A stretch of 41,491 bases of DNA from a virus, in the IMG/VR virus record IMGVR_UViG_3300011114_000931, positions 1-41,491 of that record; one strand, written 5' to 3'. This document shows, one piece after another, positions 5,778 through 41,491 of the stretch. The position numbers and the translations under genes were made by a program. Under the pieces are notes generated by a model that saw only the letters and a program-made list of their open reading frames with translations, made no database searches and was not told the origin of the DNA. Every line of letters starts with the position of its first letter. Within the stretch, counting starts at the first letter, position 1.

Positions 5778-7005
5778 TGTTTATAGTTATGTGCCAAGTA
5801 CAGGCGTTATTGTTCCTGATACTGCAACGATTCAAGCAGACGTGCAAAACGAATATCGAGCGCTTTTTGGCGATGATATGGTTAGAGATGCGCCAAATAC
5901 TCCACAAGGATTATTAATTAATGCGGAAACACAGGCACGAATTGCTGTAGTTGATAACAATGCAGCATTAGCAAACCAAATAAACCCTAATTTTGCAGGC
6001 GGTATTTTTCTAGATGCTATTTTGAGTCTCATGGGCAGTCAACGAAATACATCTACTGAGTCATTGGTTCAATGTACATTAAATGGTGTTATTGGGACGG
6101 TTATACCGGAAGGGTCGCAAGCAATGGACGCCAATGGCAATTTATGGCAATTATTGACTACCACTACATTGCCGTTATCAGGAACAATTGACGCACCTTT
6201 TGCGGCTGTTGAACCTGGCCCTATTACTGTTGCGGCTTCAAGTATTACAATTATTGTAAGCAATGTATTGGGGTGGGAAAGCGTAACTAATGCTGCTATA
6301 CAAACGTATTTAGGAACGTTAACACAAAGCGACGTACAGGCTAGACAATTTAGAAACAACACGCTGTTTTTGCAAGGTAATTCGTTAGCAGGAGCTATTA
6401 TTGCAGGATTATATGCAACAACAGGCGTACAAAGTTTGTCATTTTTAGAAAATATAACGTCTGGATCGTTAACCATCCCACCGAGTGGCCCAGGTGGCGT
6501 CACTTTAACAGCTAATTCTATCTATGTGTGTGTTAATGGTGGAACAGATAGTGCGATAGCGTCGACATTAACTGCAACAAAAAGCGGTGGGTGTGGTTAT
6601 TCCAATGGCGCTAGCGCAACAAATGTTAGTGTGTCCTATGTTGTGCCGATTAGCGGACAGACTATTATGGTGTTGTTTGACAGGCCCGATTCAATTGTTA
6701 TTAGTATAGAAATCACGGTTGTTATTAATACACCGATACAAAACCCAGAAACTACGATACAAAATGCTATATTAAAATACGCAGCAGGCGAGGTGAATGG
6801 GCTAGCCGGTTTTGTTGTTGGTCAAAATGTATCACCGTTTGAAATTGCCGCCTCTGTTGGGATTCAGTATCCAGGCGTTTATGTACAAGATTTGCAAATT
6901 AAAAACGTGACCAGCTCGGGTAGCTTTGTACGTACAGAATTGCCTATTTATAAATATCAAATTCCTACGATAGTTATAGGAAATATCGCGGTAACTGTAG
7001 CATGA
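5770..7005 (+). CDS. Baseplate J-like wedge protein
   Basis: This is 411 residues from the ATG at 5770, chosen because CGGGAG lies just upstream; the frame is open six codons further. The N-terminal segment has VPSTGVIVPDTATIQADVQN and YRALFGDDM, then DAPNTPQGLLINAETQARIA, the signature of baseplate J proteins. A cysteine-containing insertion (SGGCGYSNGA) and C-terminal strands (SIEITVVINTP, AGFVVGQNVSPFEIAASV) complete the pattern. It forms the wedges that link the hub to fibres and sheath. It overlaps the following gene by four bases. Confidence 0.88.
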   Translation: MADVYSYVPSTGVIVPDTATIQADVQNEYRALFGDDMVRDAPNTPQGLLINAETQARIAVVDNNAALANQINPNFAGGIFLDAILSLMGSQRNTSTESLVQCTLNGVIGTVIPEGSQAMDANGNLWQLLTTTTLPLSGTIDAPFAAVEPGPITVAASSITIIVSNVLGWESVTNAAIQTYLGTLTQSDVQARQFRNNTLFLQGNSLAGAIIAGLYATTGVQSLSFLENITSGSLTIPPSGPGGVTLTANSIYVCVNGGTDSAIASTLTATKSGGCGYSNGASATNVSVSYVVPISGQTIMVLFDRPDSIVISIEITVVINTPIQNPETTIQNAILKYAAGEVNGLAGFVVGQNVSPFEIAASVGIQYPGVYVQDLQIKNVTSSGSFVRTELPIYKYQIPTIVIGNIAVTVA

Positions 7006-7712
7006 ACATACAAAAATTTGATTATTCTACAGATGTACTTGCGGTTAATTTGTGGCAATACGATAACGCGACAAATTTATTAGGTTTGATGAAATTCAAG
7101 CAAGCATGGTTAGATCAAAATCAGACATTATTTTGGGAAAAATGGTACGACAATGTATTTAATTTAGCCAGCCCAACCATAACATTATTTGGATTGTCTG
7201 TATGGTCTATTATTTTAAACGTCCCATTGTTTGCGCCCATAGGCTCGGTTCCTTCAAATGAAATATGGGGGTTTAATGAGTTCGATCCCACCTTTCCAGA
7301 TTATGTCAACGACAATGTAAATTATGATAATGGCGTGTTTGGTGATGCTCAAGTAACGTATTTATCATTACCACAGCAGCAATTTCTGCTGATGTTAAGA
7401 TATTTTGATTGCATTACTCGTGGTTCGATGCAAGATTTTATACCCATTAATTTTAAAACAGATTTACCCACATCGTTTTTATATCAAGACAATTTCAGAA
7501 TAAGCATTAACACCTATTTGCAATATTTATGTTTTAATTTTGCCGAGCGAATCGGTTACGGCACAAACACGATTGTATGTTTAGACAATTTAGATATGAC
7601 GGTTACTTATCATTTTAGTGATATCAATGCGTTTCCTGTTGCATTATACAATGCAATTTTAGCTTTAGATTTGTGGCCGAGACCCGCGGGCGTATCGGTT
7701 TTATTAACTTAA
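7002..7712 (+). CDS. DUF2612-like baseplate/tail protein
   Basis: This 236-residue protein starts in an ATGA overlap with baseplate J. The opening (LLGLMKFKQAWLDQNQTLFW, then FWEKWYDNVFNLASPTITLF, then GLSVWSIILNVPL) and the C-terminal VTYHFSD followed by LWPRPAGVSV match the DUF2612 family that follows baseplate J in simple myoviruses. It is believed to be the protein (Mu gp48/P2 gpI-like in position) joining wedge to fibre. No catalytic motif is seen. Confidence 0.78.
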   Translation: MNIQKFDYSTDVLAVNLWQYDNATNLLGLMKFKQAWLDQNQTLFWEKWYDNVFNLASPTITLFGLSVWSIILNVPLFAPIGSVPSNEIWGFNEFDPTFPDYVNDNVNYDNGVFGDAQVTYLSLPQQQFLLMLRYFDCITRGSMQDFIPINFKTDLPTSFLYQDNFRISINTYLQYLCFNFAERIGYGTNTIVCLDNLDMTVTYHFSDINAFPVALYNAILALDLWPRPAGVSVLLT

Positions 7713-8835: not shown

Positions 8836-9393
8836 ATGGAAATAATCTACAAAAAAATTGATGAATTGCATGGGTATGATAAAAACGCTCGCATCCATGG
8901 TGATGATCAAATACAACAAATCGCATTAAGCATAAAAAACTTTGGGTTTAACGATCCCATTGAAATAGACGATACAAACACGATACTCAGTGGTCATGGT
9001 CGTTTAGCTGCCGCGATCAAATTAGGATTATCTGAAGTGCCTACCATTACTCATGGGCATATGGATGACGATCAACGCAAAGCTTATATTTTAGCTGCTA
9101 ATCGTATTGCTATGAATTCCACATGGGATAATTTGTTGCTCAAAGAAGAATTTTTGACATTGCAAGACCATGCTTTTGATTTGAGTTTAACGGGTTTTGG
9201 TGATGATGAGATTTTTGAAATATTAGATGAACATGAAATCGTTGATTCAAAATCACCTGACAATCAAAAATATAATTCAGTGTATGAAATTATTATTGAG
9301 TGCAACGATGAAAACGAACAAGAATTAATGTTCAATCGTTTTCAAGAAGAAGGATTAAAATGCAGAATTTTAAGTAAGAGTGTTATTGTATGA
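8836..9393 (+). CDS. ParB-like N-terminal domain protein
   Basis: This 185-residue protein reads as a ParB/sulfiredoxin-fold domain: NARIHGDDQIQQIALSIKNF with GF, then PIEIDDTNTILSGHGRLAAA with the conserved GHGR box at residues 53-56, then EVPTITHGHMDDDQRKAYIL. In phages this domain is often fused to a DNA methylase; here it stands alone, with a short acidic C-terminal tail instead. It overlaps the next, small-terminase-like gene by four bases, a pairing often found before the large terminase. Likely a CTP- or DNA-binding factor in packaging or segregation, or a nuclease; the exact role is unknown. Confidence 0.82.
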   Translation: MEIIYKKIDELHGYDKNARIHGDDQIQQIALSIKNFGFNDPIEIDDTNTILSGHGRLAAAIKLGLSEVPTITHGHMDDDQRKAYILAANRIAMNSTWDNLLLKEEFLTLQDHAFDLSLTGFGDDEIFEILDEHEIVDSKSPDNQKYNSVYEIIIECNDENEQELMFNRFQEEGLKCRILSKSVIV

Positions 9394-23090: not shown

Positions 23091-23329
23091 TGGAAGACGC
23101 AAAAACTATTTTGATTGAGCAATCAATGGAAAACATTAAGAAACTTGAATCGATTTTATGCAAATTTAAAACCGATTTAAGTTCGGACGATTTTGATTTG
23201 TTATCTCACGTCTGCATGTCTAGCGAGGTTCTGTGCGCTTATATTTCTACGAGTTTATATGCTGATGTGATAATGATGTATAAACATTATGAAAGACAGT
23301 TTAATGTTGATAATTCTGTTGCTCATTGA
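23090..23329 (+). CDS. Small helical hypothetical protein
   Basis: This 79-residue protein starts in a TAATG overlap, with AGGAGCGG upstream. It is all-helical (AKTILIEQSMENIKKLESIL, DDFDLLSHVCMSSEVLCAYI). Not recognised. Confidence 0.6.
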   Translation: MEDAKTILIEQSMENIKKLESILCKFKTDLSSDDFDLLSHVCMSSEVLCAYISTSLYADVIMMYKHYERQFNVDNSVAH

Positions 23330-23355
23330 TTAACACAAAAAAAAAGGAAAATATT

Positions 23356-23655
23356 TTGTACAAAAAAAACACCTATTGGTTTGTTATAAAAAACAAATCA
23401 AAAAAAGAAGAATTATTTAAATTTGACGCAGGAACGGAAGTAAGAAAAAAAATAATGGAGTTTATGTATGAATCGCAAGATCAAAACAATGAACTCCGTA
23501 TGTCATATGTAGATATAGCAAAAGAAATAGGATGCCATAGAGAAAGCGTCATGAAAGCCGTTAAATGGGCTCAAATAAAAAATATTTTAATAAAAACAAT
23601 GGCAAAACAAAACAAAGTAGAGGAAAGAATAAACAAATATACTTTTATTTTGTAG
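23356..23655 (+). CDS. Winged-helix-like small DNA-binding protein
   Basis: I choose the TTG at 23356 (99 residues) because AAGGAAA precedes it at a good distance; another TTG at 23326 overlaps the previous stop but has no ribosome site. The core, RMSYVDIAKEIGCHRESVMK followed by AVKWAQIKNILI, is a clear helix-turn-helix with wing, and the rest is Lys-rich. It may regulate early genes or help replication initiation, as the O-like gene follows. Confidence 0.65.
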   Translation: MYKKNTYWFVIKNKSKKEELFKFDAGTEVRKKIMEFMYESQDQNNELRMSYVDIAKEIGCHRESVMKAVKWAQIKNILIKTMAKQNKVEERINKYTFIL

Positions 23656-23974
23656 ACAAGTCATTGAAAACAAAGTAAGTTGAACGACTTAAGCTAGAGC
23701 AGTAACTCCAGCTCAGGTCGTGAGCGAAGCTCATTGACATAACCGCGATTAATAAGGAATCGGATTATGGGCTATTATTATATTATATTATTACGGAATG
23801 ACAATAGTTTTGATGAAATATTTTATGCTGATTAGATTGGTAGATTTTTTGTTAAGTAAAAAAAGGATATTAGAAGCGAGAAGTAAATAGGGCATCCCGC
23901 CCCGACACGTATGTTGACGCATACGGTGTACAACCTGTAATGCTGAAGGAACAACAGCGAAGGAATGTTATCAC
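23656..23974. other. 319-base region without a confident gene
   Basis: This stretch separates the small early genes from the O-like replication gene. It contains a GAGC/GCTC-rich segment near 23695-23735, a 22-codon open frame at 23767-23835 with AAGGA upstream (MGYYYIILLRNDNSFDEIFY then AD), a leftward promoter-like sequence related to promoters A-D at 23782-23810, and a hairpin at 23908-23925. It may hold a leader peptide, a small RNA or part of an origin; none is proved. Confidence 0.5.
23908..23925. other. Hairpin CGTATG-loop-CATACG before the O-like gene
   Basis: CGTATG (23908-23913) and CATACG (23920-23925) form a 6-bp stem with loop TTGACG; ACA and TGT outside can pair if one base bulges. 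It is 50 bases upstream of the replication gene. It could be an operator or an RNA element in the leader. Confidence 0.4.
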
Positions 23975-24916
23975 ATGAGCAATAAAAATACAACACCCGC
24001 ATCAATAGAAATTACGCCTGCGTATGATAATTACATATCAATCGATTTATCCTCCAAACGCAATATGTCGCTTTATGAAATGGCTGTTTATCAAACACTG
24101 CGTTTTGAGTGTCAATTTAGTCAAAAGGTCAGCAAAATCGAACGAACAATCGCATGGATTGCCAAGGAATCCAAATGCAGTGAGAGAAAAGTTTACGATG
24201 CATTAAACGCTTTGGAATTTAAGCATTTTGTATTGCAACGTCAAAACGTAAAGAATTTTAAATACGGGAAAGTTAATTCATATCTTATAGCTAAAGATTA
24301 TGAATATTTTAAACAAAAAGACCAATCATTTTACACCCCTGCATCAAACGACATAGGTGTAAAACAAGAGAACAAGTTACCTGAGCAAATTTCTTACACC
24401 CCTGCACCATATGCAGGAACCCCTGCACGAAACGACATACTAAGATCTACATTAGATATACATAAGAAAAACAAAACAATAAACAACACACTTTCACCGC
24501 CTGACGGCGATGTATTGCCTGTAAAAGCGGTTGATACTGATTATTCTTACCCAGATACCTTGTATCAAGAGTCCATGCCAGCAACTGAGATTAAAAACAA
24601 AGAGTTAAATGCAATTGTTAGTACTAATCCTCACAATATCCCATGCGACATGATTGAAGATTGGGCCCAAGTCAGAAAAGTGGCTCGTAAAAAAATAACA
24701 AGAACAGCATGGAACACGATTAATAAGCAATTAGAACTATGCAAACAAAAAGGGATTAGCCCTTTAACTGCTTTTGAGACAATGGTAACCAGGGGATGGG
24801 CCAGTATAGAAGTTGACTGGTTAACAAAAGGAAGTAAAACGCATTTAGCACCTGATGTTACTTATTTTAATCATGATCCATTAAAGCCTCTTAATATTGC
24901 AGAGGATTTATTTTGA
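23975..24916 (+). CDS. Lambda O-like replication initiator
   Basis: This is 313 residues. A winged helix-turn-helix fills about residues 30-115 (MSLYEMAVYQTLRFECQFSQ, RTIAWIAKESKCSERKVYDA then LNALEFKHFV), the pattern of phage O-like initiators. The central linker (~120-165) is encoded by DNA with iteron-like repeats (24332-24439). The C-terminal domain (~225-300: MIEDWAQVRKVARKKITRTA, WNTINKQLELCKQKGISPLT) is the usual helical part that contacts the helicase loader. The P-like gene overlaps its end by four bases. AAGGAATG precedes the start. Confidence 0.82.
   Translation: MSNKNTTPASIEITPAYDNYISIDLSSKRNMSLYEMAVYQTLRFECQFSQKVSKIERTIAWIAKESKCSERKVYDALNALEFKHFVLQRQNVKNFKYGKVNSYLIAKDYEYFKQKDQSFYTPASNDIGVKQENKLPEQISYTPAPYAGTPARNDILRSTLDIHKKNKTINNTLSPPDGDVLPVKAVDTDYSYPDTLYQESMPATEIKNKELNAIVSTNPHNIPCDMIEDWAQVRKVARKKITRTAWNTINKQLELCKQKGISPLTAFETMVTRGWASIEVDWLTKGSKTHLAPDVTYFNHDPLKPLNIAEDLF
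24329..24439. repeat. Intragenic iterons: putative replication origin
   Basis: ACCCCTGCA occurs at 24335, 24398 and 24419. The first and third copies extend to 21 bases with 19 identities (ACCCCTGCATCAAACGACATA at 24335-24355; ACCCCTGCACGAAACGACATA at 24419-24439). TTTTACACC (24329) and GGTGTAAAA (24356) are inverted around copy one, and CCTGCA/TGCAGG are inverted at copy two. AT-rich DNA follows (24440-24490). This is the lambda ori layout: iterons in the O gene followed by an easily melted region. Confidence 0.68.
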
Positions 24917-27340: not shown

Positions 27341-27455
27341 GCTATAAATGCATACAAAATGGAAGGATTTAGACCGCGGCTTGAAAGTCATATAGAATAA
27401 GGGTTTTGTTGTGTTTACTCACAGACTTTTCAACAGATATTGGGGGTTAAATTAC

Positions 27456-29078
27456 ATGCCGTTACCATTTGATTTTGATTATAAAAAACCGGATTATAAC
27501 GAAGTATGGGATTGGCGTATGGAGCGTTATCTACGTTTGAAACAAACCCCTGAGATGTGGGATACATTGCGATTGTTTTATCGCAGCAACCCTGCGCAGT
27601 TTATTATTGATTGGGGTGTTACAAGTGATCCTCGAAATGTCGAGCGTGGACTGCCGGTGCTTATGCCTTTTTTGTTGTTACCTAAGCAGGAAGAGTGGGT
27701 GCATTGGTTATTAGACCGTTGGAAAAACAGGGAGCCCGGCTTGGTTGAAAAATCACGCGAGTGCGGTCTGTCTTGGCTTACTGTTAGCGTTGCATCAACT
27801 CTTTGTTTGTTTTATGAGGGAATGAATATCGGCTTCGGTTCCCGCAAAGAAGAGTACGTTGATAAAAAAGGTGATCCAAAATCGCTCCTGTGGAAAGCCA
27901 GACAATTTATTTCACGACTCCCGAGGGAATTTCGAGGAGATTGGGAAGAAAAAAAACATAGTCCGTACATGCGTATTGAATTTCCTAACAGTGGCTCTGT
28001 TATCACTGGCGAGTCTGGGGACGGTATAGGACGAGGGGCAAGAACCTCAATAACATTCATTGATGAAAGCGCCTTTATTCCACGCGCCGAGCTTTTGGAT
28101 GCTTCGTTATCACAAACAACTAACTGCAGAATTGATGTATCAACACCAAGAGGAATGAATAATAGTTTTGCAAGAAAACGATTCGGTGGAAAAATAAACG
28201 TATTTACGTTCCATTGGACAGATGATTTAAGAAAAGACCAGGCGTGGTATGAAAAAATGTGTCATGACATTGACGATCCCGTCGTCATAGCTCAAGAGAT
28301 TGATTTAGATTACTCAGCATCTGTCGAAGGCATTTTAATTCCTTCAGTATGGGTGCAATCAGCTGTAGATGCCCATTTAAAACTTAATATAAAACCCACA
28401 GGCACACGCAAAGCAGGAATAGACATTGCAGACGAGGGGATAGATAAAAACTCGCTATGCGCGCGCCATGGTATACTCGTGGAGCATCTTGAATCATGGA
28501 GCGGAAAAGGGAGTGATATATACGATACGGTTGAAAGGGCCTTTAGGCTTTGTGATGAGTTGCATTTACCTAGCGCTGATTATGACGCTGATGGTCTTGG
28601 GGCTGGCGTTCGGGGTGATGCTCGTGTCATTAATCGCGATCGTGTGGCTGCTGGGTTATCTAAAATCAATTTTAATCCTTTTAGAGGCTCAGGTGCGGTT
28701 GTCGATCCCGAAGGTAACCCATTTCAGTCGTCGTCAGAGATTAAAGATCGCGAACCAGGCAGAACAAACGAAGACTTTTTTGCTAACGCTAAAGCGCAAG
28801 CTTGGTGGTCGCTAAGACGCAGGTTTCAATTAACATACCGAGCAATAGTAGAAAAACTACCCGTAGACCACGGCGACATTATTTCAATATCAAGCGCAAT
28901 TCCAGACTACAAAAAACTGTTAGTTGAATTATCACAACCAACATACTCACAAAATAACAACGGTAAAATTTTGATAGACAAACAACCACCTGGTTGCAAA
29001 TCCCCGAATTTGGCCGACTGCGTTATGATTGCATTTGCTCCTGTACCTGGCGCACGACGAAGCATATTTAATCTTTAG
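27456..29078 (+). CDS. terL: Large terminase subunit
   Basis: This is 540 residues from ATG 27456, chosen because [20 protein letters not shown] is the usual family start; a GTG at 27411 with AAGGG upstream is possible. ATPase: a Walker A-like [10 protein letters not shown] (~97-107) and Walker [11 protein letters not shown] with the catalytic Asp-Glu (~199-206). RNase H-like nuclease: [14 protein letters not shown] (~322), [11 protein letters not shown] (~375) and [12 protein letters not shown] (~518), holding the acidic residues. It packages DNA into proheads using the portal. Terminases of this kind go with DUF1073 portals; the small subunit is not next door but near 9.4 kb. Confidence 0.93.
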
Positions 29079-29093
29079 GGTTAAAAATGTAAT

Positions 29094-29115
29094 TTATGAC
29101 CTCTAGTGGTCATAA
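29094..29115. terminator. Hairpin between terminase and leftward initiator-like gene
   Basis: TTATGACC (29094-29101) pairs perfectly with GGTCATAA (29108-29115), loop TCTAGT. A second small inverted repeat GGTCA-ATA-TGACC follows near 29137-29149. No T-run follows, so it may be a terminator for converging transcripts or a protein-binding palindrome. Confidence 0.5.
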
Positions 29116-29183
29116 ACTTATGGCTCTGTACTCGGTCAATATGACCCGGTTGTTAAATTTTAATTCAAGAGTAAATGACTGAT

Positions 29184-29714
29184 TTATCCATAACCATTTT
29201 CTTTTCTCCATTCACCCACCCATTCATACCCTTTCACTCCGTGAGCAAACTCTTGTAATTCGGTGATTGTGGGTTTTTTTGTTTTTGAAGTTGAAGTTGC
29301 GTAAGCATCGCTATTGTCTTTCTTATTGCTTTTAAGATCTGAATTTTCCATATACCGTTTTTGGGTAAGCTTAGGTGACCCATTTTTGGGTAAGCTTCCG
29401 GAAATAACGGGTACGCTTGGTTTTTGAGCATACCCAATAACGGGTACGCTTAATGTAACTCTGTACACAGGCGTGCTTTTGGTTTTCCCTTTCATTTCAC
29501 CCGTTTTCACTATTAATTTTTTTTCAGATAATGAAACAAGAGCTTTATAAACGGTTTTTTTATCCAATGAAGTACTTTCACAAAGTGATTTAGCTGAAGG
29601 CCAGCACTCATATGTTTTTTCATCGGCACGAAAGGCAAGCACATTTAAAGTAGAATGTTCAGATGATAATAAATATTTAATTTTATAAGAAAGATTTACT
29701 AGTTCTATGCTCAT
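29184..29714 (-). CDS. Second winged-helix initiator-like protein
   Basis: This is 176 residues. The N-terminal winged HTH (residues ~10-90: YLLSSEHSTLNVLAFRADEK, WPSAKSLCESTSLDKKTVYK, LVSLSEKKLIVKTGEMKGK) is of the same type as the O-like protein. The linker (~90-125) has repeated peptides (SVPVIGYAQKP, SVPVISGSLPK, SPKLTQK) encoded by DNA iterons. The C-terminal TITELQEFAHGVKGYEWVGE is short. It lies alone on the minus strand between large terminase and portal. It could be a second replication initiator or a regulator that binds its own gene. There is a weak ribosome site. Confidence 0.72.
   Translation of the reverse strand: MSIELVNLSYKIKYLLSSEHSTLNVLAFRADEKTYECWPSAKSLCESTSLDKKTVYKALVSLSEKKLIVKTGEMKGKTKSTPVYRVTLSVPVIGYAQKPSVPVISGSLPKNGSPKLTQKRYMENSDLKSNKKDNSDAYATSTSKTKKPTITELQEFAHGVKGYEWVGEWRKENGYG
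29363..29451. repeat. Intragenic repeats GGGTAMGCTT (x4)
   Basis: GGGTAAGCTT occurs at 29363 and 29388, each after a T-run (TTTTTGGGTAAGCTT), and GGGTACGCTT at 29409 and 29442, each after ATAAC (ATAACGGGTACGCTT). Spacings are 25, 21 and 33 bases. The array lies inside the second initiator-like gene, as the iterons at 24.3 kb lie inside the O-like gene. It may be a second origin or a self-binding site. Confidence 0.72.
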
Positions 29715-29784
29715 TTGTTATACTATTCCCATGATGTTGTTTCGTTTGTCTGTCACTTCATCTTGTATTTGATACATACACTAG

Positions 29785-29813
29785 CCGCGTATATCGTCGA
29801 AAAATCTACGCGG
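29785..29813. other. Hairpin CCGCGTA/TACGCGG in the portal leader
   Basis: A perfect 7-bp G/C-rich stem (29785-29791 with 29807-29813) with a 15-base loop is followed by CAATCCCTTG. It is in the 235-base gap before the portal gene. A TATAAT at 29888-29893 downstream may be the -10 box of the head operon promoter, though its -35 box is poor. The hairpin may end a leftward or upstream transcript. Confidence 0.4.
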
Positions 29814-29949
29814 CAATCCCTTGTCTAGCCTGCATTATACACAAGTCATTGATTAAATTATATAAATCAAAAACTCTCGATATGGCATATAATCTAACTT
29901 TGTAGCATCATAACGTTTACTATCGTCCGCTAGCTTGCAGGAGTTTTTA

Positions 29950-31488
29950 ATGTTGTCGAAATGGATTAACAAATTAATAAACAAAAAAACAGAAACACCC
30001 GCTCTTGTCGCGCCTAAACCGGAACGACCAAGACAAATTTATTACGACAACACACAAAACAGTCTTCAGTCACAAATTGAAGAAAAAATGGAAGATTTGT
30101 TCAAAAACGCAATCAATCCAGCCGTAGCGATGGATACCGCAAAAAACAAAGGCGCTTCTACGTTTGCGATGGACAATCAGCTGTCTCCTAAACAAGCATT
30201 TAACACGCAAAACCTGCCAGAAGCGCAAGTTATGTGGTATCTGAATCAGTCGTTTATTGGCTACCAGCTTTGTAGTTTGCTCGACCAACAATGGTTAATC
30301 TCTAAGTGCTGTCTGATGCCCGCCAAAGACGCGACAAGAAACGGCTACGAAATTACAGTTAATACAGGGGGGGATGATGGCGTTAACCCTGAAGTTTTGG
30401 ATTACATACGTGAAGCAGATGTACGGTATCAACTCAACCGAAACCTCATTCAATTCGTCCAAATGGGGCGGGTTTTTGGTATACGTCATGCTATGTTTAT
30501 CGTGGAATCTGACGATCCTGATTATTACCTTAAGCCATTTAATCCAGATGGGGTAATGCCCGGAAGTTACAAAGGCATATCACAAGTAGATCCGTATTGG
30601 ATGGCCCCACAATTAGATGCCGAAGCCGCAGGCAACCCCGCAAACATTTACTTCTACGAACCCACATGGTGGATAATCAACGGCAAGCCGATACACCGCA
30701 CACATTTAGTTATTTTCAGAACCGAAGAAGTAGCCGACATTCTAAAACCCGCTTACATTTACGGGGGTGTACCGATACCCCAGAAGATAGCGCAACGAGT
30801 CTTTGCGGCAGAAACAACAGCTAATGAGGCTCCAATGCTTGCAGCCACCAAGCGTACAGACGTAATGAAACTAGACTTGGCTCAAGCCGCAGCAAATCCT
30901 ATTAATGTAGCTAACACACTTAATCAATACGTCACTAATCGTAATAATTTTGGCGTTAAACTCATTGGCTTGGATGATGAATATCAACAGCATGATATTT
31001 CACTTGCTGATTTAGATTCTGTGATTATGACGCAGTTTCAACTTGTGGCAGCAGCAGCAAACGTACCGGTTACAAAGCTTCTGGGAACCACTCCAAAAGG
31101 TTTTAACGCAACCGGCGAGTATGATGAATCATCATATCACGAAGAACTTGAGAGCATCCAGAAACACGATTTAACACCAATGATTGAACGCCATCATCTG
31201 TTATTGATACGTTCTGAAATAGCACCTAATTTTGGCATTGAACCATTTCACACGACTATCGCATGGAATCCTCTTGATGCAATGACTGCCGAGGAGCTAG
31301 CTGTATACAACAAAACGAAAGCGGAGACGGGTAGCATCTTGATGCAATCAGGGGCTATTGATGGATACGATGAACGTGAACGCATTGCCAGCGACCCGGA
31401 TAGCGGTTATAACGGACTCGATACAAATATGACACCAGATGAACATCATGGTGAAATGATTGAGAGCGATCCAAACGAGGGTAGTTAA
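29950..31488 (+). CDS. Portal protein (DUF1073 family)
   Basis: This is 512 residues from ATG 29950, with AGGAG upstream. Typical DUF1073 patterns are seen: [20 protein letters not shown] then [80 protein letters not shown] and [13 protein letters not shown]. These phages use it as the dodecameric portal at the capsid vertex. It precedes the gp7/F-like gene (TAATG overlap). Databases may name this family after the anti-CBASS protein Acb1; here all features are those of the portal. Confidence 0.9.
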
Positions 31489-39621: not shown

Positions 39622-41394
39622 ATGGGAATTAATATTAATCGATACGTTGATATAACATCAACGGTTGGCGCTGGTGGCGTGCCGCCTGTTCGTTCGCTAA
39701 TCGGTAGATTGTTTACAGGTAATAGTAAATTACCACCACAAACTTTTATTGAATTTACTAATGCTACGGATGTCGGTACTTATTTTGGTACGGCATCAGA
39801 AGAATATGCTCGAGCTTTGTTTTATTTTACTTGGGTAAGTAAATCAAATACCACTGCGGATGCGATTCAGTTTGCTCGATGGGCGACTGTTGCGGTAGCG
39901 CCTATGATTTATTCAATACCTAATAACGCTGCTGATTTAGCTGCTTTGCAAGCAATTAGTGCCGGATCGTTTGGGTTAACAATCGGCGCAACTTCTCACG
40001 TTTTAACGGGCATTGATTTTACTGGCGCAACTTCTCTCTCTGACGTGGCTTCTGAATTACAAACAGCAATTAGATTGCAATCTGGGGCTGCGTTTGCAAC
40101 TGCCACGGTTGTCGAAAGCAATGGTGGTTTTATTTTTACGGCTGGTGCTACGGGTGCGGCTGAGATATCAGTACAAGTAGCCGGAGGCGGCACGGATATA
40201 ACAGCTGAAGGTTTGCTGGGATGGTTTCCTGGAAATACTTACTCAAGCAATTTATCTGCTATCCCGCCTTTATTTACTAATGCGATTTATGCGGCCAACG
40301 CAATATGGGCTAGAGGTTCGGCAGCAGAAACTATATCTGCCGTTCTAACAGCCTCTTCTGCAGTATCTAATAATTTCGGCTCTTTTCTGTTTTTAAATAA
40401 TTTAAACGTAACTTTAAGCCAAGCAATTGCGGCAGCAACTTGGAATCAAACGCAGAACGTCGAATATCTTTATACTGTTCCTGTAAGCGCCGCAAACGCT
40501 GCTGCGTGGTCAAATGATACAACAGGGTTAGGATTAATTGGCGGATGTTGTTTGACGCTTCAAACGCCTTCTTTTACAGCCGTTGGAACCGTAGCATCAG
40601 CATCAAATCAAGTGACAGGATTGTTAAATAATAACCGTATGACTGCGGGGATGTTGGTTTCAGGCACAAACATTCCTACAGGAACAACAATCCTATCTAT
40701 TAACAGCACGACGTTCGCATTAACTTTGTCAGCCAATGCCACAGGAAGCGCCACAGAAACCATTACATTTTATCCTAATGAGTTTCCCGAGCAGTGTCCT
40801 ATGATGATAGAAGCAAACACAGATTACACGGCTGATAATTCGGTTCAAAATTACATGTTCCAAAATTTTGATCCATTTTTAACGCCTAGCGTTGTTTCTG
40901 ATGATTTAGCTGATGTTTATGATGCGCAATATGTGAATTATTACGGTCAAACTCAAACATCAGGGCAAGTATTTAATTTGTATCAACGAGGATTAATGCT
41001 GGGCCCGATTACTTCGCCGCCTGACATGACGACTTATGTTAATGAATTGTGGCTAAAAGATGATATGACCGCTGTGTTGTTTACGTTGCTTATGCGATTA
41101 AAACAATTGCCAGCCAACACACAAGGTCAATCGTTAGCTTTATTGTCTATACAAGGCGTCATTAATCAAGCATTACTGAATGGTGTTATTTCTGCAGGAA
41201 AAACTTTAACAACGATTCAACAAGGATTTATTACTGATACAAGCGGTGATGCAAATGCATGGTATCAAGTACAAAATTCCGGGTATTGGGTTGATGTGGT
41301 CATTGATGCTATTACTAATCAAGCAGAGTATATTTTGATTTATTCAAAAGATGATGTGGTTCGTAAAATTATCGGTCAGGATATTTTGATCTAA
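39622..41394 (+). CDS. Tail sheath protein (DUF3383 type) with inserted beta module
   Basis: This is 590 residues. N-terminal part: INRYVDITSTVGAGGVPPVR then SLIGRLFTGNSKLPPQTFIE and FTNATDVGTYFGTASEEYAR, typical for DUF3383 sheath proteins. The C-terminal part has LYQRGLMLGPITSPPDMTTY and VNELWLKDDMTAVLFTLLMR plus YILIYSKDDVVRKIIGQDIL, the usual sheath end. Between them, residues ~318-388 (VTGLLNNNRMTAGMLVSGTN, TTILSINSTTFALTLSANAT) form an extra beta domain also found in the collar fibre. The sheath contracts to drive the tube into the cell. Its last codons lie in the 127-base terminal repeat. Confidence 0.88.
   Translation: MGININRYVDITSTVGAGGVPPVRSLIGRLFTGNSKLPPQTFIEFTNATDVGTYFGTASEEYARALFYFTWVSKSNTTADAIQFARWATVAVAPMIYSIPNNAADLAALQAISAGSFGLTIGATSHVLTGIDFTGATSLSDVASELQTAIRLQSGAAFATATVVESNGGFIFTAGATGAAEISVQVAGGGTDITAEGLLGWFPGNTYSSNLSAIPPLFTNAIYAANAIWARGSAAETISAVLTASSAVSNNFGSFLFLNNLNVTLSQAIAAATWNQTQNVEYLYTVPVSAANAAAWSNDTTGLGLIGGCCLTLQTPSFTAVGTVASASNQVTGLLNNNRMTAGMLVSGTNIPTGTTILSINSTTFALTLSANATGSATETITFYPNEFPEQCPMMIEANTDYTADNSVQNYMFQNFDPFLTPSVVSDDLADVYDAQYVNYYGQTQTSGQVFNLYQRGLMLGPITSPPDMTTYVNELWLKDDMTAVLFTLLMRLKQLPANTQGQSLALLSIQGVINQALLNGVISAGKTLTTIQQGFITDTSGDANAWYQVQNSGYWVDVVIDAITNQAEYILIYSKDDVVRKIIGQDILI
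40573..40785 (+). other. Beta module in sheath shared with collar fibre
   Basis: Encoded residues ~318-388 align with residues ~174-242 of the collar fibre (8246-8455): VTGL, M.AGM.V.G.N, TTI.SI, LSA.ATG and a closing FY are common to both, with equal spacing. It probably projects from the outer surface of the contracted-type sheath, as insertions at this site do in other phages. Confidence 0.7.
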
Positions 41395-41491
41395 CTGAGG
41401 GGCAAACATGTTTAACGTTAGCGGTTTTGGTACAAGTGTAAATATTTTAGCCTCGGTTACTTATCCGATAGGTTTGCAAATCACACAATTT
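41365..41491. repeat. 127-bp terminal direct repeat, right copy
   Basis: Identical to bases 1-127; see the left copy. It contains the end of the sheath gene and the first codons of the tube gene. Confidence 0.93.
41408..41491 (+). CDS. Tail tube gene, 5' fragment (duplicate of 44-127)
   Basis: The first 28 codons of the tube gene are repeated here only because the contig ends overlap. It is not a second gene. Confidence 0.93.
   Translation, partial: MFNVSGFGTSVNILASVTYPIGLQITQF

Follow-up and report, generated by a model that had tools for sequence, protein, structure and literature searches.

Phage P1 carries two replicons, RepA/oriR and RepL/oriL, and one of its origins lies inside its own initiator gene. 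The phage described here is predicted to have a similar arrangement, with two initiators, one of them containing an intragenic origin; the protein families differ, and no partition or integrase genes were found in this phage. In the O-P module of lambdoid and Stx phages, the winged-helix initiator O has semi-palindromic iterons inside its own gene, ori-lambda, and the lambda iteron, ATCCCTCAAAACGAGGGA, is the same kind of dyad as the CCCAAAAACGGG dyad discussed below (PMC7466680). In the RepA_N replicons of pSK41 and the chimera pPR9, the N-terminal winged helix of the initiator binds four Rep boxes in the middle of the rep gene, the origin encodes the linker of the protein, and the leader is controlled by an antisense RNA; the N-terminal domain of pPR9 is HTH_36 (pfam13730) (PMC5703833). 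In the PLE satellite of Vibrio cholerae, the iterons of the RepA origin are described as semi-palindromic and as converging on a poly-A tract (PMC7145576).

The window (the whole stretch of DNA analysed, 41,491 bases) contains a minus-strand gene, P0001, that resembles each of these systems in part (Table 1). Like lambda O, P0001 has a winged-helix domain and semi-palindromic iterons inside its own gene, and most of its relatives, again like lambda O, have a partner P gene. Unlike lambda O, P0001 is the second copy of its kind in the genome, lies in the late region on the opposite strand, has its own promoter and leader, has no adjacent P and ends in a short C-terminus; its dyad spacer is 6 bp, compared with 9 bp in lambda. 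With pSK41 and pPR9 it shares the N-terminal winged helix (HTH_36 in P0001 and pPR9), four boxes inside the initiator gene in DNA that encodes the linker, and a leader that is predicted to be antisense-controlled. It differs from RepA_N replicons in belonging to a Gram-negative-type phage, in having no known C-terminal domain and in that its antisense RNA is a prediction. The RepA_N profile (PF06970) gave no match in the window at E<=10, a weak test, as no control genome passed the cut-off either. Like PLE RepA, P0001 is a phage-associated initiator without a helicase or primase, but its iterons lie inside a gene of a resident phage, whereas those of PLE lie in non-coding satellite DNA.

That P0001 is a real orphan initiator-plus-iterons unit, a replicon of the lambda O/RepA_N kind, is well supported by the comparisons given below. 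Our favoured reading goes further: P0001 is probably an orphan phage replication initiator that carries its own origin and forms a self-contained, exchangeable second replicon working by the lambda O/RepA_N logic.

Table 1. Features of the P0001 locus and of the main replication module (window coordinates).
Feature	Position	Strand	Remarks
Main O-like initiator, P0002	23975..24916	+	Own, different repeat ACCCCTGCANNAAACGACATA at 24335 and 24419
Lambda-P type helicase loader, partner of P0002	24913..25536	+	PF06992, 99.8 bits
Terminase large subunit (TerL)	27411..29078	+	Left border of slot
Terminator-like hairpin directly downstream of P0001	29091..29118	-	1 found, 0.6 expected
P0001, orphan O-like initiator gene, 176 aa	29184..29714	-	ORF and profile matches
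C-terminal tail PTITELQEFAHGVKGYEWVGEW	29208..29273	-	Common to C-termini of unrelated O-like proteins in L006 and L007
Moderately AT-rich flank	29313..29352	.	75% AT, 91st percentile of window
Half-site 1, GGGTAAGCTT	29363..29372	+	Core ACCCAAAAACGGTA at 29353-29366(-)
Half-site 2, GGGTAAGCTT	29388..29397	+	Core ACCCAAAAATGGGT at 29378-29391(-)
Half-site 3, GGGTACGCTT	29409..29418	+	Exact motif match
Half-site 4, GGGTACGCTT	29442..29451	+	Dyad partner at 29426-29435
N-terminal winged-helix DNA-binding domain, residues 1-88	29451..29714	-	HTH_36, AlphaFold2
Antisense promoter-like site TTTACT-18-TGtTATACT	29695..29724	+	Points into leader; putative antisense RNA promoter
Leader hairpin GCCGCGTA...TACGCGGC	29784..29814	-	Same place, different stem in L017, L090, L005
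TATAAT -10-like box of P0001	29834..29839	-	
Portal protein	29935..31488	+	Right border of slot

The two initiator genes of the phage

The first and last 127 bases of the window are identical (1-127 and 41365-41491, exact). Hence the assembly is complete and circular, with a length of ~41,364 bp; the record is classed as linear. The initial annotation had proposed two initiator/iteron units in one phage, and this was supported. P0001 and P0002 each have their own repeat. The repeats of P0002 as a whole did not rise above synonymous shuffles (89 of 200 reached the same level), and no relatives of P0002 were found in IMG/VR. The window also encodes a tail sheath, a Sak4-like annealing protein and a Cro-like protein. 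A 109-aa ORF at 23326-23655, which matches initiator PHROGs 270/391 and HTH domains weakly, is possibly a third winged-helix protein, and a protein with a ParB-like nuclease/methyltransferase-type domain is encoded at 8836-9393. GC skew was uninformative for the window, and no further findings came from the alignment-based scans A1 and A3.

The ORF of P0001 is intact, with an ATG start and no internal stop. It matched HTH_36 at 34.6 bits (curated cut-off 25) and phrog_1032, 'replication initiation protein', at 64.7 bits, and PHROGs 678, 270, 428, 391, 186 and 8102 were matched by both P0001 and P0002. AlphaFold2 predicted a confident winged helix for residues 1-90 (H-H-H-H-E-E, pLDDT 79-94) and disorder past residue 90. 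Judged by its profile matches, the winged helix is a member of the HTH_36/phrog_1032 replication-initiator family, which bears out the O-like domain that had been assigned to this minus-strand gene. Its fold matches were generic winged helices, transcription factors included, and did not separate regulators from initiators.

The DnaT-like domain of full-length relatives is absent from P0001; it may be noted that this domain is typical of HTH_36/phrog_1032 initiators, not universal. No P loader or helicase gene lies next to P0001, P adjoining the main O instead. Consequently, P0001 may bind an origin but not fire it. The tail of P0001 (..KGYEWVGEW..) recurs in two O-like proteins with different DNA-binding halves. 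As the partial records of these two (L006 and L007) contain no lambda-P or DnaB gene, the tail may recruit a helicase in another way.

Repeats inside P0001 and its relatives

Four copies of GGGTAMGCTT in two subtypes had been reported in the linker DNA of P0001, and all four were recovered as exact matches (Table 1), two of the AAG and two of the ACG subtype. The motif occurs nowhere else in the 41,491 bases of this complete circular genome, so that the sites would act only in cis. The clearest dyad, GAGCATACCC-AATAAC-GGGTACGCTT, lies at 29426-29451 with 9 of 10 positions paired, and a second, partial dyad at 29372-29397. When the whole window was scanned for 10-mers with at least four near-exact copies per 100 bp, only the P0001 array and an A-rich AATAAAGAAA run at 744 were detected; the same scan of five Markov-shuffled genomes detected none. 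Near-identical 10-mer pairs in P0001 numbered 35, compared with 16.2 +/- 5.8 in synonymous-codon shuffles. Since none of the 200 shuffles reached 35, the repetition goes beyond what the protein sequence demands. The DNA past the array had been described as AT-rich; this holds for the first 40 bp (Table 1), but over 60 bp the value is only 67% AT (73rd percentile of the window), which leaves the description weakly supported. In ori-lambda, an AT-rich region that unwinds lies beside the iterons.

A tblastn search with P0001 returned 32 phage and 25 plasmid records, with one place per record. The regions that were opened contained mostly initiator genes, followed by genes for replication protein P, a DnaB-type helicase or a primase/helicase. 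The linker DNA of these relatives carries CCCAAAAACGGG repeats, 49 copies being read in frame 0 (PKNG) and 18 in frame 1 (TQKR), and both frames are often found in one gene, P0001 included. The same DNA kept in different reading frames points to selection on the DNA, as would be the case for binding sites. In P0001, frames 0 and 1 contain one copy each and the reverse strand a third, every copy having one mismatch; 15 of 300 shuffles attain this motif count, which makes it borderline by itself. By sequence comparison, the sites of P0001 are variants of the CCCAAAAACGGG dyad. In nearly all genes of relatives tested, the repeats were above the synonymous-shuffle level; those of L090 were not (21 of 200 shuffles reach theirs). 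No paper with the CCCAAAAACGGG motif was found in the literature searched. In the genome collection (cellular genomes), P0001 had no close relatives, and TerL matched one MAG contig.

In the circular E. coli plasmid pZ1323HEC0067-2 (L196, NZ_CP148379.1; 8,461 bp), the genes annotated for replication are P and an initiator of the P0001 family, which suggests that the family can sustain autonomous replication. The backbone of this natural 8.46-kb plasmid is a lambdoid CI-Cro-YdaT-O-P region, in which it resembles lambda-dv. When IMG/VR was scanned for paired GGGTAMGCTT, 15 matches were obtained, one of them in a winged-helix gene of another phage (L190) and the others unrelated. In that gene (L190:3938-4654), AAGCGTACCC half-sites occur in a 12-bp tandem array of six copies encoding SVPP repeats.

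Apparent exchange of the gene between TerL and portal

P0001 stands alone in the TerL-portal interval, on the strand opposite to both neighbours, and in most of ~60 related loci there is little or no gap between TerL and portal. In a sister record (L017/G001), whose TerL is 94% identical and which matches much of the genome at ~85% nucleotide identity, P0005 occupies this slot on the same strand. This gene of 196 aa has no similarity to P0001 that could be detected; its matches to initiator families are weak (phrog_270, 27 bits), and it contains four 23-nt repeats with spacings of 22, 22 and 36, found in the sister in this gene only. A search of phage and plasmid records with P0005 gave no relatives, and the quality of its structure model was too poor for use. 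The main module of the sister also differs from that of the window, being another winged-helix ORF beside a DnaB helicase, split at its repeats by the contig ends. The break lies inside palindromic CCCCCGGTCCCTGAGGGACC repeats of the main initiator gene, and the contig starts with an apparent Nextera adapter remnant, GTATAAGAGACAG.

In L021/L022, the slot holds a P63C gene. Two further orphans were found in other late-gene contexts. That of L090, 62% identical to P0005, is flanked by a tail-fibre-like gene and by lysis genes; that of L005, 60% identical to P0001 over the winged helix, follows a gene that is presumably P22 gp10-like. In L091, whose TerL is an 85% relative, positions 6630-7245 comprise palindrome-rich DNA after TerL that resembles IS605-type ends, and the start of a plus-strand ORF; this MAG is labelled Bacteroidetes and may be mis-binned. 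The presence of non-homologous genes of the same design in one slot of sister phages suggests that a spare initiator with its own sites is selected, and not one particular protein. Phages thus seem to swap spare replication-start cassettes.

The contents of the slot are hypervariable, a trait also seen with exclusion genes, and P0001 might be a replication-interference moron, its truncated initiator and iteron array making a decoy origin that titrates, blocks or competes with rival phages or satellites using related iterons. Ectopic copies of ori-lambda do block lambda replication (PMC4488673), and the lack of a DnaT-like domain would fit such a role. We consider it unlikely, as the sites of P0001 would act only in cis, the IMG/VR scan brought up such sites in a single winged-helix gene and nothing that was clearly a rival origin, and the leader and tail are kept as for a working initiator.

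Control region and proposed function of the cassette

In the four orphans (window, L017, L090 and L005) the gene is preceded by the same order of elements: TATAAT box, hairpin, TAGTGT-like stretch (TGGGATGT in L090), RBS and ATG. The stems themselves differ (GCCGCGTA/TACGCGGC, GCCGTATA/TATACGGC, GCCATACT/AGTATGGC and GCCGGAA/TTCCGGC); they were compared by eye, the automatic alignment having misaligned L090, and the comparison covers only four sequences, two pairs of which are related. Stems of such length appeared in 6 to 31 of 2000 shuffles. With the settings used, the combination of box, hairpin and ORF was found once in the window and once in the sister loci searched, at the slot gene both times. 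Upstream of their start, the main O genes (window 23890-23975, sister main O and L091:1300-1400) share another leader hairpin, CGTATG..CATACG, with GTGTA or a similar sequence after it. Rfam gave no match on 28900-30200.

An extended -10 element (TGTTATACT or TGCTATAAT) lies antisense at the start codon in all four orphans. Such an element was found at 2 of 60 ORFs in the window and 2 of 63 in the sister, the slot gene being among them each time. As this probable antisense promoter points into the leader, an antisense RNA probably sets the level of P0001 expression, in the way that plasmids control their copy number; antisense-controlled plasmid initiators such as that of pSK41 have this geometry. 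The antisense hairpin lacks a clear U-run, no clear antisense terminator is present, and the plus-strand promoter of the window could simply restore transcription of portal. Of the readings in the initial annotation, that of a captured plasmid- or satellite-type replicon is the one that the anatomy of this control region favours most; no ParA or integrase was found in the window or the sister, and no tyrosine integrase was detectable in the window, so that plasmid-like maintenance gains no further support.

P0001 could also be an autoregulated DNA-binding protein without origin function, which binds the repeats of its own gene and limits its own transcription. The confinement of the sites to that gene and the transcription factors among the fold matches would agree with this; however, with cis-only sites such a regulator has nothing else to regulate, and the tail of P0001 is common to O-like proteins. 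In the initial annotation, relatives that are transcription regulators without conserved internal repeats were to count against the initiator reading. This objection fails: every named relative that was examined is a replication initiator, belonging to an O-P, O-DnaB or O-primase module, and most have the same kind of intragenic repeats. A purely autoregulatory role is therefore very improbable.

The pN/pS ratio was 0.43 for P0001 against L005 and 0.36 for P0005 against L090, compared with 0.07 for TerL; by this measure, the codon evolution of the slot genes is constrained, more weakly than that of TerL. There is accordingly little chance that P0001, although shorter than its relatives and without their DnaT-like domain, is a relic, now decaying, of an earlier main initiator that stayed behind when the replication module was replaced, since both ratios are below 1, the ORF is intact, the repeats are complete, promoter, leader and terminator-like hairpin are present, the sister has an intact non-homologous equivalent, and the gene lies between head genes, away from the replication module.

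Under the favoured reading of a second replicon, the winged helix of P0001 would, in the manner of lambda O at ori-lambda, bind semi-palindromic iterons within the P0001 gene itself, AAGCNTACCC-N6-GGGTANGCTT together with partial copies, and the short C-terminal tail would recruit the replication machinery, so that the second origin could fire; perhaps the two origins serve different stages, as the initial annotation suggested. The -10 box, structured leader, initiator with iterons and terminator-like hairpin would together make up the cassette in the exchangeable slot. More tentatively, and with some doubt on our part, tailed phages may possess a class of orphan, exchangeable mini-replicons, each with an antisense-controlled leader, a short winged-helix initiator and intragenic iterons, which are swapped through late-gene slots independently of the main O-P/DnaB module and serve either as a second origin or as a weapon of the incompatibility type directed at relatives.

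Origins inside HTH_36 initiator genes can be located by a simple signature, the CCCAAAAACGGG dyad read in two frames. The pair of slot genes offers a way to test whether plasmid-style second origins or replicon incompatibility serve phages in competition.
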